Positions 29,597 to 35,253 of a stretch of 64,000 nucleotides of DNA are shown piece by piece. Origin of the DNA: Bradyrhizobium sp. AZCC 1693 (lineage in GTDB: Bacteria > Pseudomonadota > Alphaproteobacteria > Rhizobiales > Xanthobacteraceae); the NCBI RefSeq assembly GCF_036924745.1, contig NZ_JAZHSD010000001.1, positions 5,022,001-5,086,000 on the forward strand, written 5' to 3'. The notes beneath the pieces were generated by a model. It made no database searches. It was not told the origin of the DNA and saw nothing but the letters and a program-made list of their open reading frames with translations. The first letter of the stretch is position 1; every line of letters starts with the position of its first letter. The translations under genes were made by a program, and so were the position numbers.

Positions 29597-29926
29597 GGGC
29601 TTCCTGATTCGATCTCAGTCGCAATATAGGGAGGTAATCATGGAAGGTCATGTGGGTGAGGGCGGCGTCCCCGCTACCCACTGCCAAAGCAGGAGATCAC
29701 GTTGGGCCGCGACAGATGGGCCAGCGTGGGCGCTAGTCGTAAGCTTCAGCTAACCTGAAGGGTTCGAAATGTCTGTTGGGCGTCTGGGGCTTCGAGGAGC
29801 CGTAGCGCTCTGGAAACTTCCGCTTTCGGGGCACCGCACACATGGCTTGAGCTGCTGTCGGATCGACCCGGTCGCGATTGACCCAACTGAGACATTGGCG
29901 CGGGGCTTCTGTCCCGCGTTTTGCGT
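29597..29926. other. Gene-poor stretch at the left edge of the accessory insertion
   Basis: No credible gene. A minus-strand TATATT (29624-29629) could be the -10 element of an addB promoter. The plus strand shows a strong GGGAGGT site before a 37-codon frame of unremarkable composition at 29640. The interval 29740-29920 reads in translation like degenerate copies of dispersed rhizobial repeats, but this is weak. Confidence 0.4.
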
Positions 29927-30145
29927 TTAGGACCACGGCGGCTCTTCGCTCGCCCCGGCTGCCTCGTGGTGGATCGTGACACCCGCCGAACGCAACCCGG
30001 TCAGCAATACAGTTCTTACAGAGGCGGGATCAAATCCAATATCCTTGGCGTTTGGTGGATGTGCCTCGCTGTCCTTCAATCGGAGCGCCAAGTGCAATTG
30101 CTCGCAAAGGTGCTGAACGACGAGATTGACTTGATCGTCAGTCAT
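29927..30145 (-). CDS. Hypothetical small protein
   Basis: A 72-residue soluble protein, MTDDQVNLVVQHLCEQLHLA at the start. The ATG at 30145 has a good AGGAG site at nine-base spacing. The N-terminal third is probably helical, with one cysteine and two close histidines near residues 58-60. No family is recognised. It lies inside the accessory insertion, convergent with nothing and antisense in orientation to the serine hydrolase gene. Confidence 0.5.
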   Translation of the reverse strand: MTDDQVNLVVQHLCEQLHLALRLKDSEAHPPNAKDIGFDPASVRTVLLTGLRSAGVTIHHEAAGASEEPPWS

Positions 30146-30523
30146 GATCGGCTTCTCCTGACCATCTTGCTACCGAACTAGGTAGCACACATGAAAATTG
30201 GGCGGTACGCGATTGGACCGCCCCCAGGGATCAACCTCACGCGATTGCCCATGGGCGGGCCCCCAATCGTCCGGCAATCGGAGCAGACCGGAAGTGACCA
30301 GCGGCGACTAGAACGCGCTTTTGACCAAAGCGACATGCCCCGTTTGAGCACAAAAAGCACGGCGCGCTGAGGCCGGGATGCGCTCCAAAGCAGACATAGA
30401 CTAGTCGCTCTGCGACAGCGCCAGCTTTTGCATCTGGTAGCTCTTCCTCGCCGGAACAATGAGCGGGCAGCTTCGGACGTGCCAGACATTATGACTCGTT
30501 TTTCTTCGCTATATTCATCAGCC
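30146..30523. other. Gene-poor stretch upstream of the serine hydrolase-ClpS gene
   Basis: About 380 bp without a supported gene. Just before the coding region, TATATT (about 30510) lies downstream of a weak TTATGA at about 16-nt spacing and may be the promoter of the serine hydrolase gene. The base composition is more AT-rich than the flanking core genes. Confidence 0.35.
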
Positions 30524-30573
30524 ATGAAACTTGTTTTTCTCTATGGCGCGTGCCTTCATTGCCGGATCGCGGT

Positions 30574-32193
30574 ATGTTTTTTGGATTATGCTTCATGACG
30601 AGCACGTCGGCGAACGCAGGACCTCTACCCGATCGCGTCGAAAAGGCCGCGCAGGAACGGATTGCGGCGGGCACCTACCAGACGCTGGTGTTCGGCGTCG
30701 TGGATGGTGACAAGAGCGAGGTTGTGGACTTCGGCAAGCTCCATGATTGCAAGGCACCCGATGGCGAGACGGTTTATGAAATTGGTTCGATAACAAAGAC
30801 CTTCACAGCCACACTCTTGGCACAGGCAGTGCTCTCAGGGCGCTTGATGCTCGACACGCCGGTGGCACAACTTCTGGCGGACTTCAAAATCCCGTCCGGC
30901 GGTGACAAAGAAATTACGCTCGGCGATCTTGCCACGCATCACTCCGGCTTGCCGCGGATGCCGTCTAACTTCACGCCGAAGGACCCAGCCAATCCCTATG
31001 CCGACTACGATGCGGCGAAGCTAAAGGTGTTTCTTGCGGGATACCAACTGCCGCGCGATCCAGGGGCCTCCTACGAATACTCCAATCTGGGGTTCGGGCT
31101 CCTGGGCCATGCGCTTGCGCAATTTGTGCCCACGACCTATGGCACCCTAACCAACGACGAAATTCTGAAGCCGCTCGGCATGACGATGAGCGGTACGGCG
31201 TTCACCGACGCAATGCGCGCCCATCTCGCTCCCGGTCACGACGACACAGGCAAAGCGGCGAAGAACTGGGACCTCGACGCATTAGCAGGCGCGGGCGCCC
31301 TCCGATCCACGGCTAATGACATGCTGCGCTATCTGAGGGCCAACATGGGCATCGGTCAGTCGCCATTGGCCGCCGCGATGAACTTTGCGCAACGGCCGCG
31401 CAGCGATATGGCAAAAACTATACGCGTCGGCCTGGCCTGGGTGACGACCGATAAAGGGATCGTCTGGCACAACGGCGGGACTGGCGGGTACAGAAGTTTT
31501 CTCGGTTTCACAGCTAATCGGGAACGAGGCGTTATCATCCTCACTAACACGTCCGCGGACCCTGATGATCTGGGTTTCGCCACGCTCGACGCGGATGCGC
31601 CGCTTGCGCCTGCATATAAGGCGACTGTTCTGCCCAGTGCGTCGCTTGATGAATATGTGGGAATTTACAAGCTTGCCGACAATTTCCCGCTGAAGGTGTT
31701 CCGGATGAACGACAGGCTTTATACCCAGGCGATCGGACAAGATGCGATCCCCATTTTCCCGTCCGCGCCCAACGAGTTTTTCGCCAGGGTCGCCGGAATC
31801 AGCATGACCTTTAAGCGTAATCCCGAGGGCGCGGTGGATGGACTTGTACTACACCAGAATGGCGACCACGCCGCACCGAAACGGATGGAGACGAAAGAAA
31901 CCGAACGTCACAGCATCTCGGACCTAGCCTCGGGACTATTGAGCGAAGTACGGCTCCTGAATGACGACTACACTCCGATGGAGTTCGTGGCTTACGTATT
32001 GGAGTGGGTATTCGGTAAGGACCGCGAGACCGCCACTCGGATCATGCTTGAGATCCATAATGAGGGTGTCGGTGCGTGCGGTATCTATCCCCACCACGTC
32101 GCCGACGCGAAGGTGACAGAGGTACTTGACCTGGCACGCCAGCATAAGCATCCACTGCAATGCATGCGCGAGCGAATCACGTCCGCCTGTTAG
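30574..32193 (+). CDS. Serine hydrolase (beta-lactamase family) fused to a ClpS N-degron adaptor domain
   Basis: A 539-residue two-part protein. Residues about 25-340 form a class C beta-lactamase/penicillin-binding-type hydrolase, with catalytic SITK (Ser72, Lys75), YSN (Tyr169) and HNGGTGG (His299). Residues 358-435 look like the DUF3471 appendage of this family. Residues 457-536 are a complete ClpS domain: NDDYTPMEF holds the N-degron-binding Asn463, Asp464 and Asp465, and His495 in LEIHNEG completes the pocket, followed by a CG and HPLQC as in ClpS. The N-terminus [14 protein letters not shown] looks like a truncated signal peptide; a frame starting at ATG 30524 would complete it if one T were added to the T6 run at 30577-30582. 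A GTG at 30550 is an alternative start. Export would conflict with ClpS partnering ClpA in the cytoplasm. It lies alone in an insertion between addB and murU. Domain calls are firm; function is unknown. Confidence 0.88.
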
Positions 32194-32455
32194 TTTTCGC
32201 AATCTCCGATAAAGGCTGCTACATTGCCAGCGGCTTGGTTCTACGACGGTAAGCATCACTTCTGCTGTTGTGCCATCGCGAAATTTTCCGTCATGCAAAA
32301 CTTGGTTGCTATCGGGGTATGGCGGACATCGAGCAAGCCTCACCCCGTTCAATTTGGCCGAAGCTGCCTACTAGCAGCAGGTGCCCATTCTACTTTGCAT
32401 GGGGTTGTTTTCGAGATTTTTTGTCTGGGTCCTGCGGACGGACCGCCGAACAGTA

Positions 32456-33178
32456 TCAGGCCACGCTTTCCAGAAACGCCTCTTCCGCGGCCTGCACCGC
32501 GTCGGGGGTTCCGACGTGCATCCAGACGCCGTCGAGCCGCAGGCCGAACAGCCGCTCCTGCTCGTTGGCGCGGTCGAACATTTTGGTCAGCGAAAACTCG
32601 CCGGCGGGCGCGTCGGCAAACAGCGAGGGCGACATGATCGCCGCACCCGCATAGACGAACGGCACCACCTGGTGTTCACGCCGTTTGCGCAACGCGCCGT
32701 CCGGCAGCATCGCGTAGTCGCCGCGGCCGGCATAGCCGATGCTGCTCGTGGTCGGCGCCATCAGGAGCAGGATGTCCATCCGGTCAGGATCGAAGGTTTC
32801 GGCGAGCCGCGCCAGATTGGGCCGCACACCGTCGATCCACATCGTGTCGGCGTTGAGGTGGAAGAACGGCTCCTTGCCGAGCAGCGGCAGTGCCTTCACG
32901 ACCGCGCCGCCGGTGCCGAGCACCTCGTCGCGTTCGTCGGAAATGATGATGCGGGGCCGGGCCCGGCTCGCGGTGTGCTGGATGATCTGGTCGGGCAAAT
33001 AATGCACGTTGACCACGGCTTCGCTGACGCCGGCACCGGCGAGCTTGTCCAGCACGTGATCGAGCAAAGGCTGGCCGGCCACGCGCACCAGCGGCTTCGG
33101 CATATGGTCGGTGAGCGGGCGCATGCGCAAACCGAGACCGGCGGCAAGAACCATGGCTTTGGCGGGCGTAACGGACAT
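32456..33178 (-). CDS. murU: N-acetylmuramate 1-phosphate uridylyltransferase-like nucleotidyltransferase
   Basis: A 240-residue sugar nucleotidyltransferase with the motif MVLAAGLGLRMRPLTDHMPKPL at the N-terminus, the substrate loop GTGGAVVKALPLL and metal-binding HLNADTMW. It could equally be read as a mannose-1-phosphate guanylyltransferase. The operon with an AmgK-type kinase points to MurU, which turns recycled MurNAc-1-phosphate into UDP-MurNAc, bypassing de novo synthesis. Downstream on the same strand, addB is displaced by the accessory insertion. Confidence 0.85.
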   Translation of the reverse strand: MSVTPAKAMVLAAGLGLRMRPLTDHMPKPLVRVAGQPLLDHVLDKLAGAGVSEAVVNVHYLPDQIIQHTASRARPRIIISDERDEVLGTGGAVVKALPLLGKEPFFHLNADTMWIDGVRPNLARLAETFDPDRMDILLLMAPTTSSIGYAGRGDYAMLPDGALRKRREHQVVPFVYAGAAIMSPSLFADAPAGEFSLTKMFDRANEQERLFGLRLDGVWMHVGTPDAVQAAEEAFLESVA

Positions 33179-33317
33179 TCCTGGAATTTCTCTTGGATTT
33201 CTCGAACCATCAAATCGGGCTGCAGATCATACCACGGCGAGTGGCTTGAACCAGCAACCATGAGGCCTTAGTGGCCGCACATGACGGCCGTACGACAGCC
33301 GCCGGCGCTGCCAAACC

Positions 33318-33641
33318 TCAGGCTTCGGCGTCCTCGGCCCCGCGCTTGGCCGCCTTCTTCTTCTTGTCGCCCTGTTTCAGGAAGTTGACGCCGATCTGAT
33401 CGCCATTGACCCAGGCCAGCTCGCAGCGCCGATAGGCTAGCCCCGTGGACGACAGCAGCAGGAAGAATTCCTTCAGATGCAGGCCCTCGACCGAACCTTC
33501 GACCGTCAGCTTGGCGCCGGTCTCGGAGACGTCTTCCATGACGCAGTCGCGCCGCCAGGTGCCGTCGATGCCCATCATGTGCGCCGCAAAGCCGCGCTCG
33601 AATACGACCCGATCTCCCTTGCGCCGTTCCGCGCCCGCCAT
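33318..33641 (-). CDS. PilZ domain protein
   Basis: A 107-residue single-domain protein. RRKGDRVVFERG supplies the RxxxR of the c-di-GMP-binding loop, and DVSETGAKLTVEG is the DxSxxGxxL-type second motif, though with A for the usual G/A position. The C-terminal tail is Lys-rich. It probably binds cyclic di-GMP in the cytoplasm. It sits between murU and the TsaE-AmgK gene in the same direction, an arrangement that couples signalling to a cell-wall operon by position only. Confidence 0.88.
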   Translation of the reverse strand: MAGAERRKGDRVVFERGFAAHMMGIDGTWRRDCVMEDVSETGAKLTVEGSVEGLHLKEFFLLLSSTGLAYRRCELAWVNGDQIGVNFLKQGDKKKKAAKRGAEDAEA

Positions 33642-33732
33642 GGCCGTCGTCCCATTTCAAAAACTGGCTGGGCCACGCCGGCTCGGCATGGCCGGTTCCA
33701 GATTAAGTGCGGGGTGGCTAACAGGAGGTAAA

Positions 33733-35253
33733 TCAGGGGAGTGGCGGCGGCACGTTGGCGGCATACCATTCGCGAAATGCCGCCAGCGCCGGGTGCGCCA
33801 GCGAGCGGTTCAGGTAGGTCCAGATCCGGGGTTGGTGGCGCAGATATTGCGGCTTGCCGTCCCGCCGGTTGAGCCGGGCGAAGGTGCCGAGCAGCCGGGT
33901 ATTCCGCTGCGCCGACATGATGGCGTAAAGCTCGGCAAAGCTGGCCGGATCGAACTGATCATCCACCGCGCGGCGCGCCTTGATGTAGCGGGTCAGGAGC
34001 GTCAATTCGAGTTGCTCGGGAACGTCGAGCCGGGCGTCCTGCAGCAGTGACACCAGATCGTAGGCGGCGGGGCCAAGCACGGCATCCTGGAAGTCGATAA
34101 TCCCGACGCGCAAGATTCCCGTGCGCTCGCCGAGCCAGATGATGTTGGGCGAATGAAAATCCCGCATCACCCAGGTGCGCGGCGCGGCTGCCGGCTTTTC
34201 CAGCAACGTTCGCCACATCGCGACGAACTCGTCGCGCCGTTGCTGGCTGATTTCGGCGCCGCGATCCGGCAGATACCATTCGAGCATCAGGCTGATTTCG
34301 ACCAGCCATGCATGGATATCGTAGGGGGGAATTTGGTATGAGCCCTGCGGCTCCAGCGGCACCGTTTCGGGCAGGGGTTTGCGATGCAGCTCCGCCAGCA
34401 TGTCGGTCGCCGCCTCGTAGCACTCGACGATCGGCCGCGGCGGATCACCTTCGACGACGCCGGCGGTGCCAAAATCCTCGGTGATCAGGAAACCGGAATT
34501 CAGATCGGCGTGGCGGATGGCGGGCGCCGAAAAGCCGTGCGCACGCAGGCCGTTGTCGATGGCGACGAACGGCTTGACGTCCTCGGCGAGATGAACGGCC
34601 GCGCTGTAGGATTTTCCGTCATAGATCGCGGGCCCATCCGGACGGCGCGGCGAATTCATCAGGATCGACGTGCCGTCGTCGCGAATCAGCCGCGCATAGG
34701 AGCGCGTCGAGGCGTCGCCGGGCATGCGCTCGCGCGCCGCATCCAGGAAGCCGGCATCGCTGAGAAACTTTCGCAAGCTGCTCAATCGCGCCACCTGCGC
34801 CGCCGCCTTGCCGTAGCCGGTGATTTCGGCGGCGCGCGCCGTGGACCCGAGCGCCGGGCGATGGCTGAAGGCGATGTCGACGCGATCTTCGGGCAGCACA
34901 TCAGGTGCGCGCTCCGGCCATTCGATCAGCGCCAGCGTGCCTTCCGGTAGCGGCGACAATCCGATTTCCTCCAGCTCGCTCGAATCATTGATCCGATAGA
35001 GATCGGCGTGGAGAAGCGGAAACGGCACATCGTAGTTCTGTGCCAGCGTAAACGTCGGGCTTGGTACTTCCAGCGTTGGATCGTTGGCGAGATAGCGGAT
35101 CATCGCGCGCGCCGCGGCCGTCTTCCCCGCGCCGAGATCGCCCGAGAGCGTGATGACGTCGCCAGGGCCGACCAGCAGCGCGAGATCGGCCATCAGATGC
35201 GCCGTCGCGGTCTCGTTCGCAAGCGCTGCCGTAAATGTCGCGGGCGCGGTCAT
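33733..35253 (-). CDS. tsaE/amgK: Fusion of TsaE (tRNA t6A ATPase) and AmgK-like sugar kinase
   Basis: A 506-residue bifunctional protein. Residues 1-155 are TsaE, with Walker A GDLGAGKT (38-45), SPTFTLAQNY and the LIEWPE motif; it assists threonylcarbamoyl-adenosine formation on ANN-decoding tRNAs. Residues about 165-506 are an aminoglycoside-phosphotransferase-like kinase with catalytic VMRDFHSPNIIW and metal-binding GIIDFQDAVLGP. This matches AmgK, which phosphorylates recycled MurNAc/GlcNAc at the anomeric carbon. The fusion is known in Rhizobiales. Its start overlaps the divL stop by four bases (ATGA). Confidence 0.92.
   Translation of the reverse strand: MTAPATFTAALANETATAHLMADLALLVGPGDVITLSGDLGAGKTAAARAMIRYLANDPTLEVPSPTFTLAQNYDVPFPLLHADLYRINDSSELEEIGLSPLPEGTLALIEWPERAPDVLPEDRVDIAFSHRPALGSTARAAEITGYGKAAAQVARLSSLRKFLSDAGFLDAARERMPGDASTRSYARLIRDDGTSILMNSPRRPDGPAIYDGKSYSAAVHLAEDVKPFVAIDNGLRAHGFSAPAIRHADLNSGFLITEDFGTAGVVEGDPPRPIVECYEAATDMLAELHRKPLPETVPLEPQGSYQIPPYDIHAWLVEISLMLEWYLPDRGAEISQQRRDEFVAMWRTLLEKPAAAPRTWVMRDFHSPNIIWLGERTGILRVGIIDFQDAVLGPAAYDLVSLLQDARLDVPEQLELTLLTRYIKARRAVDDQFDPASFAELYAIMSAQRNTRLLGTFARLNRRDGKPQYLRHQPRIWTYLNRSLAHPALAAFREWYAANVPPPLP

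Follow-up and report, generated by a model that had tools for sequence, protein, structure and literature searches.

The fusion gene and its domain architecture

The window, which is the whole 64,000-nucleotide stretch of Bradyrhizobium DNA that was analysed, contains a fusion gene on its plus strand (30550-32193). The gene encodes in one frame a family-S12 hydrolase, a DUF3471 domain, a linker and a ClpS core, with a length of 547 amino acids counted from GTG 30550 in the translated list of open reading frames (Table 1). Pfam places Beta-lactamase (PF00144) at residues 32-340 (E 7.1e-52; 177 bits against a cut-off of 27), DUF3471 at residues 358-435 (E 7.5e-10) and ClpS (PF02617, above its cut-off) at residues 466-538, covering profile positions 7-79 of 80 (E 7.2e-27). 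By these Pfam boundaries, the ClpS core is attached on its N-terminal side to DUF3471 via a linker of ~30 residues. Because the hydrolase is attached at that side, the free N-terminal extension of normal ClpS is absent from the fusion. A sequence-only reading of this DNA had described a serine hydrolase fused to a complete ClpS adaptor. The fusion is real, and the SITK, YSN and HNG motifs as well as the Asn-Asp-Asp and His of ClpS are present as that reading described. It named the hydrolase and ClpS correctly but overlooked the DUF3471 domain between them, and "complete" applies to the folded ClpS core but not to the missing free extension.

Among 20 aligned fusions (19 distinct), 19 rows cover SxxK and all 19 have its Ser and Lys; the Tyr and Asn of YSN and the His and Gly of HxG are kept in all 20. 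The whole-protein structure prediction is poor outside ClpS (mean pLDDT 41), and for this reason domain contacts in the fusion are not claimed.

The DNA similarity of the window to two other fused genes (L145 and L147) begins at 30590, that to a third (L146) extends up to 30518, and position 30595 corresponds to the only possible start in two fused copies, L117 and L118. Given the L145/L147 boundary and the sole start of L117 and L118, ATG 30595 is better supported as the start codon than ATG 30574, which the sequence-only reading had chosen and which does lie inside the fusion frame.

Table 1. Features of the fusion gene and its surroundings in window coordinates
Feature	Position	Strand	Basis
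Fusion gene, longest reading from GTG	30550..32193	+	Open reading frame and Pfam
Preferred start codon ATG	30595..30597	+	Similarity with L145/L147 from 30590; sole start in L117/L118
Weakened signal-peptide-like stretch, only if translation starts upstream of 30595	30550..30594	+	Hydropathy
Beta-lactamase domain (PF00144, family S12)	30643..31569	+	Pfam
Active-site SITK (nucleophile Ser and Lys)	30787..30798	+	Residues 65-68 from ATG 30595; alignment
Active-site YSN	31078..31086	+	Residues 162-164 from ATG 30595; alignment
Active-site HNGG	31468..31479	+	Residues 292-295 from ATG 30595; alignment
DUF3471 domain (unfused P0158 has two)	31621..31854	+	Pfam
Linker from DUF3471 to ClpS, ending in HSxSDxxSGLLSEV	31855..31944	+	Linker pattern comparison
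ClpS core domain (PF02617)	31945..32163	+	
ClpS Asn-Asp-Asp, predicted N-degron pocket	31960..31968	+	Includes Asp458 from ATG 30595; fusion alignment
ClpS pocket His, single codon	32056..32058	+	Residue 488 from ATG 30595; pocket list in the excerpt of PMC12493166; fusion alignment
Insertion between addB and murU-like gene, absent from relatives	29693..32383	.	L204 alignment
Block ~97% common to two other Bradyrhizobium genomes, at unrelated places	29891..32281	.	L143 29891-32281; L144 29879-32273

Genomic site and apparent mobility

Alignment of the related locus L204 to the window stops at 29692 and resumes from 32384, leaving an extra 2.7 kb in the window. The start of addB directly adjoins the murU-like gene in 10 of the 12 same-genus relatives; in the remaining two (L207 and L208), addB lies outside the fetched stretch. 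An insertion in a conserved operon, as claimed earlier, is thus borne out by the 10 of 12 relatives, but importance of the operon for the fusion is not supported, given that the other five fused copies are all located elsewhere. An operon function of the addB/murU site is rejected, since none of these five copies has such neighbours in the fetched stretches, those of L145 and L147 lying near contig ends. The window neighbours at 32456-35253 (minus strand) are presumably MurU and a TsaE-AmgK fusion of cell-wall recycling.

A 2.4-kb block of the window recurs at ~97% in two of the other five fused copies, and L145 and L147 share flanks only with each other. Because the sites differ, a block is shared and the flanks mostly differ, the fusion gene seems, as far as these alignments go, to move or be transferred alone, with no partner gene travelling along. 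The Pfam families of 19 proteins that adjoin fused copies (and one of the unfused locus L148) vary by place, and 7 of the 19 have no match. They include ArgJ, rotamase, methyltransferase, zinc-ribbon/phosphoribosyltransferase, NMT1-like, DUF4403, DUF4118, PALP, methionine synthase, M20 peptidase and kynurenine-pathway families. Plasmid carriage was rejected, as no near match of the fusion gene was found in the plasmid collection. A sequence of ~53 bases at one end of the insertion (window 32384-32438) recurs inverted at L143 7307-7359 beside the shared block and is possibly an intergenic repeat linked to movement of the block. The moved block also holds a small open frame of 72 amino acids (window 29927-30145, minus strand; MTDDQVNLVVQHL...) that is divergent from the fusion gene.

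Distribution, intactness and selection

The window-type fusion is intact in six of 265 Bradyrhizobium genomes, three at 98-100% and three at ~81% identity, and in a family sample of 257 genomes from 47 genera (E<=1e-110) no genome but the window's own has a match. All three domains occur in 17 of the 55 significant proteins from a search that used the ClpS part alone as query and was restricted to proteins of about the full length of the fusion. Of these 17, 14 are of the window type and 3 (P0040, P0043 and P0045) of a longer type with 668-669 amino acids. Thirteen of the window-type clusters have 527-562 amino acids, and P0016, with 455, is without the N-terminal part; P0015 from B. jicamae, which is counted among the 14, is the same copy as that in genome G168. 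B. jicamae is a culturable soil strain with this rare gene. In a search for loci in genome contigs, the best 80 of 592 all match only query residues ~441-547, that is, the ClpS part.

Between the lineages of ~81% identity, dN/dS (Nei-Gojobori) is 0.14-0.20 for the hydrolase, 0.14-0.20 for ClpS, 0.11-0.26 for DUF3471 and 0.16-0.47 for the linker. The closer pair L116/L118 gives 0.23 for the hydrolase, 0.12 for DUF3471, 0.10 for ClpS and 0.33 for the linker. The ClpS values of 0.30-0.59 within the closest trio (L113-L115) derive from two to three synonymous and three to five other changes. Judged by these ratios, the fusion gene is under purifying selection, its ClpS part included. A sequencing or assembly error is ruled out by the intact frame in six genomes and 14 clusters together with the low dN/dS. 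Ancestry from split genes was likewise rejected, because the two nearest unfused loci (L148 and L149, 11 and 17 kb) contain no ClpS match; the relatives are not split there. The fusion therefore survives an objection that the sequence-only reading had raised against itself, homologues encoded as separate genes and a sequencing error joining them.

The hydrolase and its export signal

The closest unfused relatives in the genus are S12 hydrolases from genomes G186 and G097, which are 72% and 64% identical to the fusion over the hydrolase and first DUF3471. In the G186 protein (P0158, Bradyrhizobium sp. ARR65), Pfam finds two DUF3471 stretches. The DNA similarity of the window to the G186 and G097 genes stops at 31880 and 31868, just past the first DUF3471, and ClpS thus occupies the place that the second DUF3471 has in P0158. 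When the G186 hydrolase was used as query and scoring covered the 7999 candidates with the most shared words, 2161 proteins reached E 1e-100 or better, and no ClpS domain is annotated among the best 120 of these 2161. The best NCBIfam match of the hydrolase part is AmpH (NF007943, 134.9 bits, below the family cut-off of 266), and the class C beta-lactamase model NF033085 gives 110.4 bits, below its cut-off of 415. AmpH-type D-Ala-D-Ala carboxypeptidase/endopeptidase is the best-named relative of the hydrolase part, although the fusion scores well below that family's cut-off and has DUF3471 and ClpS in addition. The nearest characterised enzymes, those of the AmpH type, are envelope enzymes with D-amino-acid peptides as substrates.

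Export was gauged by a simple 10-residue hydropathy measure, not a trained signal-peptide predictor. The two unfused genomic copies from G186 and G097 (L119 and L120) each begin with a stretch that resembles a signal peptide; their hydrophobic scores are 2.71 and 2.68, at n-region charges of 2 and 3. Among the best 120 of the 2161 relatives, 3 are without the anchor motif, 38 have their start called near an inner Met and 79 carry 12 or more residues ahead of the motif; hydropathy reaches 1.6 in 75 of these 79, and the n-region charge is at least +1 in 73. The window copy, read from GTG 30550, scores 1.70 with a charge of 0, and L114 scores 1.34 with a charge of 0. In L115, the upstream frame is shifted relative to the window, and an ATG 34 codons up gives 1.85 with a charge of +2. 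By the hydropathy measure, no signal-peptide-like stretch is found in three of the six genomic fusions: L116 scores 0.89 whichever start is taken, and upstream starts are missing from L117 and L118. Metagenome cluster starts were set aside as export evidence, because callers also begin the 38 of 120 unfused relatives at the inner Met. An early reading that the signal peptide is lost in the window copy was dropped, as comparison with unfused relatives reveals a similar but weakened signal peptide in that copy. We read these N-termini as an export signal that has decayed in most fused copies, and the proteins of the window copy and L115 may still be exported. The signal peptides of the unfused relatives had escaped the sequence-only reading, as had the kinship of the ClpS module described below.

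Ancestry of the ClpS module

ClpS is an adaptor that feeds a single destination, ClpAP. Canonical ClpS (PF02617; Caulobacter 3dnj/3gq1, E. coli 2wa8) is a free small protein, whereas the ClpS of the fusion is not. In a tree of 86 ClpS domains, built from every window-type row and a sampling of the other groups, a single starred clade (97/87) unites the window type. This clade nests in a starred clade (98/92) of Clp_N-ClpS proteins and other fusions that stands apart from canonical ClpS in a tree of 80 columns with many open forks. The Clp_N-ClpS tree group also takes in other long ClpS proteins, such as P0026 and P0050, and P0045 was left out because the motif pattern missed it. The nearest Clp_N-ClpS domain (P0082) shares 88% identity with the window ClpS, the others 80% or less and the canonical rows 56-65%. 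The linker before ClpS looks by eye like that of some Clp_N-ClpS proteins, and a strict linker pattern matches 10 of 14 fusions, 8 of 53 Clp_N-ClpS proteins and none of 113 canonical sequences. By tree and identity, the ClpS of the fusion is a member of a separate, mostly Clp_N-ClpS subfamily. Its closest relatives differ in the partner of ClpS, which is the ClpA N-domain in Clp_N-ClpS proteins and the hydrolase in the fusion.

Clp_N-ClpS proteins constitute a large family, mostly of 250-300 amino acids (part of P0057-P0156). The N-terminal part of one member, P0064, is ~68% identical to the N-domain of Bradyrhizobium ClpA. Its structure model (pLDDT 85, pTM 0.78) suggests that the two domains dock on each other. 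A full-length P0064 match occurs in one of the 257 genomes of the family sample at E<=1e-75 (L202, G431) and in none of the 265 Bradyrhizobium genomes, where scans with P0064 and its ClpS part are dominated by ClpA and canonical ClpS matches. Five viral contigs (L233-L237) encode Clp_N-ClpS relatives that match residues 4-250 at 43-46% identity.

The N-degron pocket and the ClpA contacts

The excerpt of PMC12493166 lists the pocket residues of Caulobacter ClpS, with Asn47, Asp49 and His79 as the alpha-amino contacts. The window pocket is identical to that excerpted list except for I45L and V78I. The alpha-amino contact residues are present in the window, and across 20 fusions Asn is kept in 19, Asp in 20 and His in 19; the exceptions are Asn to Lys in P0013 and His to Asp in P0004, and Met75 is Thr in 4 of the 20. 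In the 19 distinct fusions, pocket columns are 97.4% conserved versus 84.9% for the other ClpS columns (p 0.0056 in a permutation test that ignores the relatedness of the fusions), and 9 of 12 pocket columns versus 21 of 62 others are invariant. The N-degron pocket residues are therefore conserved across the fusions, which removes the objection, raised beforehand, that homologues might have lost them.

The ClpA N-domain contacts Glu79, Glu82 and Lys84 of ClpS (E. coli numbering), according to the same excerpt of PMC12493166. The window has His, Asp and Lys at these positions. All 19 distinct fusions have His, Asp or Gln for Glu79, Ala for Thr83 and an unchanged Lys84, and Glu82 is kept in 1 and replaced by Asp in 17. 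Canonical ClpS, compared without ClpS2 rows, has Glu, Glu and Thr at positions 79, 82 and 83 in 63, 63 and 61 of 63 distinct rows. At Caulobacter position 50, 6 of 19 fusions have Tyr, versus 51 of 59 Clp_N-ClpS proteins and 63 of 63 canonical rows. Compared with canonical ClpS, the fusion module thus has changed ClpA-contact positions at 79, 82 and 83 as well as no free N-terminal extension.

The genome (7.6 Mb, one contig) encodes two free ClpS proteins besides the fusion, a Leu/Phe-tRNA-protein transferase, an ATE_C (Bpt-type) protein and one ClpA above the curated cut-off. Since these N-degron pathway genes are present, N-degron proteins should exist in the cytosol. The second free ClpS (L003, G000:C1:3045360-3045596) has Arg for the gatekeeper Met (NDDYTPREFV) and therefore perhaps a different specificity.

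Repeated unions of ClpS with enzymes

A branch of 3.66 changes per column separates the hydrolase of the longer fusions from that of the window, and unfused hydrolases fall on the same side as the window; the ClpS of the longer type stands elsewhere in the ClpS tree than that of the window type. Two separate unions of an S12 hydrolase with ClpS are supported by these trees. A third, reversed-order union is possible from one metagenome sequence, P0105, in which Pfam finds ClpS, then the hydrolase, then DUF3471. A common origin of P0105 and the window type is rejected by an AU test (p 1.6e-6) that was chosen after seeing the data and concerns a single sequence with a long branch and odd composition. 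The hydrolase tree does not show the window type as a clean single clade (2 changes), since its members have the long paralogue group and P0105 branching off between them; 20% of bootstrap trees recover it as one. In one further cluster, P0020, a ClpS from the subfamily of the fusion module has an M50 (site-2-type) membrane peptidase domain as its partner.

Proposed role and alternatives

We tentatively propose, as a reading that could well prove wrong, that the ClpS of the fusion holds an N-degron molecule for the hydrolase in the cytosol rather than feeding ClpAP. The proposal starts from the observed architecture, the intact active-site and pocket residues, the purifying selection and the Clp_N-ClpS kinship of the module. 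A family-S12 hydrolase of exported ancestry would have acquired ClpS in place of its second DUF3471 and would work in the cytosol. The pocket would grip a protein or peptide by an N-terminal Leu, Phe, Tyr or Trp; with no free N-terminal extension for ClpAP to pull on, the held molecule would not be handed to ClpAP, and the hydrolase may act on a peptide, amide or ester bond in it. The reaction of the hydrolase part is a guess from its family. Further points in favour of the proposal are the recurrence of the union, the three of six genomic copies that lack a signal-peptide-like stretch and the N-degron pathway genes of the host; points against it are the signal-peptide-like N-termini of the window copy and L115, the pocket exceptions, the higher ClpS dN/dS of the closest trio, the rarity of the fusion and the envelope location of AmpH-type activity. 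Delivery to ClpAP by the fusion is unlikely on its residues and layout, and the excerpt of PMC9663308 reports that blocking the ClpS N-terminal extension inhibits delivery. The fusion could nevertheless bind ClpA, because Lys84 is invariant.

Such binding underlies the main rival reading, that ClpS docks on the ClpA N-domain and either brings the hydrolase to ClpAP or competes with normal ClpS and thereby restrains N-degron proteolysis. The retention of Lys84 in every distinct fusion, the occurrence of the nearest ClpS modules in proteins that also bear a ClpA N-domain and the docking suggested by the P0064 model argue for it. However, positions 79, 82 and 83 are unlike those of canonical ClpS, Tyr50 is kept far less often than in Clp_N-ClpS and canonical proteins, and the blocked extension removes the normal second contact; we consider this reading unlikely. 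ClpS might instead attach the enzyme to ClpAP as a handle by which the enzyme's own level is set by proteolysis. Signal-peptide loss in several copies would bring the enzyme within reach of ClpAP, but such a handle would not need a conserved N-degron pocket and, in the excerpt of PMC9663308, ClpS is not degraded by ClpAP, and we regard it as very improbable.

Next after the docking reading stands continued export, in which the protein is periplasmic in this strain and ClpS is a peptide-binding or structural add-on that replaces the second DUF3471. The N-terminus from GTG 30550 is similar in frame to the signal peptides of unfused P0173 and P0162, and the window score lies within the unfused range (7 of the 79 among the best 120 of 2161 are below 1.7). 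The n-region charge of the window copy, by contrast, is below that of 73 of those 79 relatives, and the scores of L114 and L116 and the missing upstream starts of L117 and L118 point away from export, which leaves this reading distinctly unlikely in our judgement. Little credence is due to an accident of recombination that joined two genes and left ClpS as passive ballast. The fusion is rare and patchy and its position varies between genomes, as an accident would have it, yet ClpS is under purifying selection, its pocket is kept more than the rest of the domain, and at least one more separate union of an S12 hydrolase with ClpS exists.

If the proposed holding of N-degron molecules for the hydrolase is true, bacteria can read N-degrons for purposes other than degradation; this meaning is based on ClpS joined to enzymes more than once, a pocket guarded by selection and the loss of the delivery arm. 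A wider reading, which we find rather doubtful, is that the ClpS subfamily may be a reusable targeting module that is also combined with ClpA N-domains and, in one cluster, an M50-type membrane protease.

Among the matches listed in a search of full-text literature, with subscription journals mostly outside it, no publication was found on this hydrolase-ClpS fusion; PMC1779556, PMC12258705, PMC12419801, PMC7159879 and PMC7824862 concern, in their excerpts, other ClpS matters. The architecture is already present in automatic annotation, under names such as "CubicO group peptidase (beta-lactamase class C family)/ATP-dependent Clp protease adapter".
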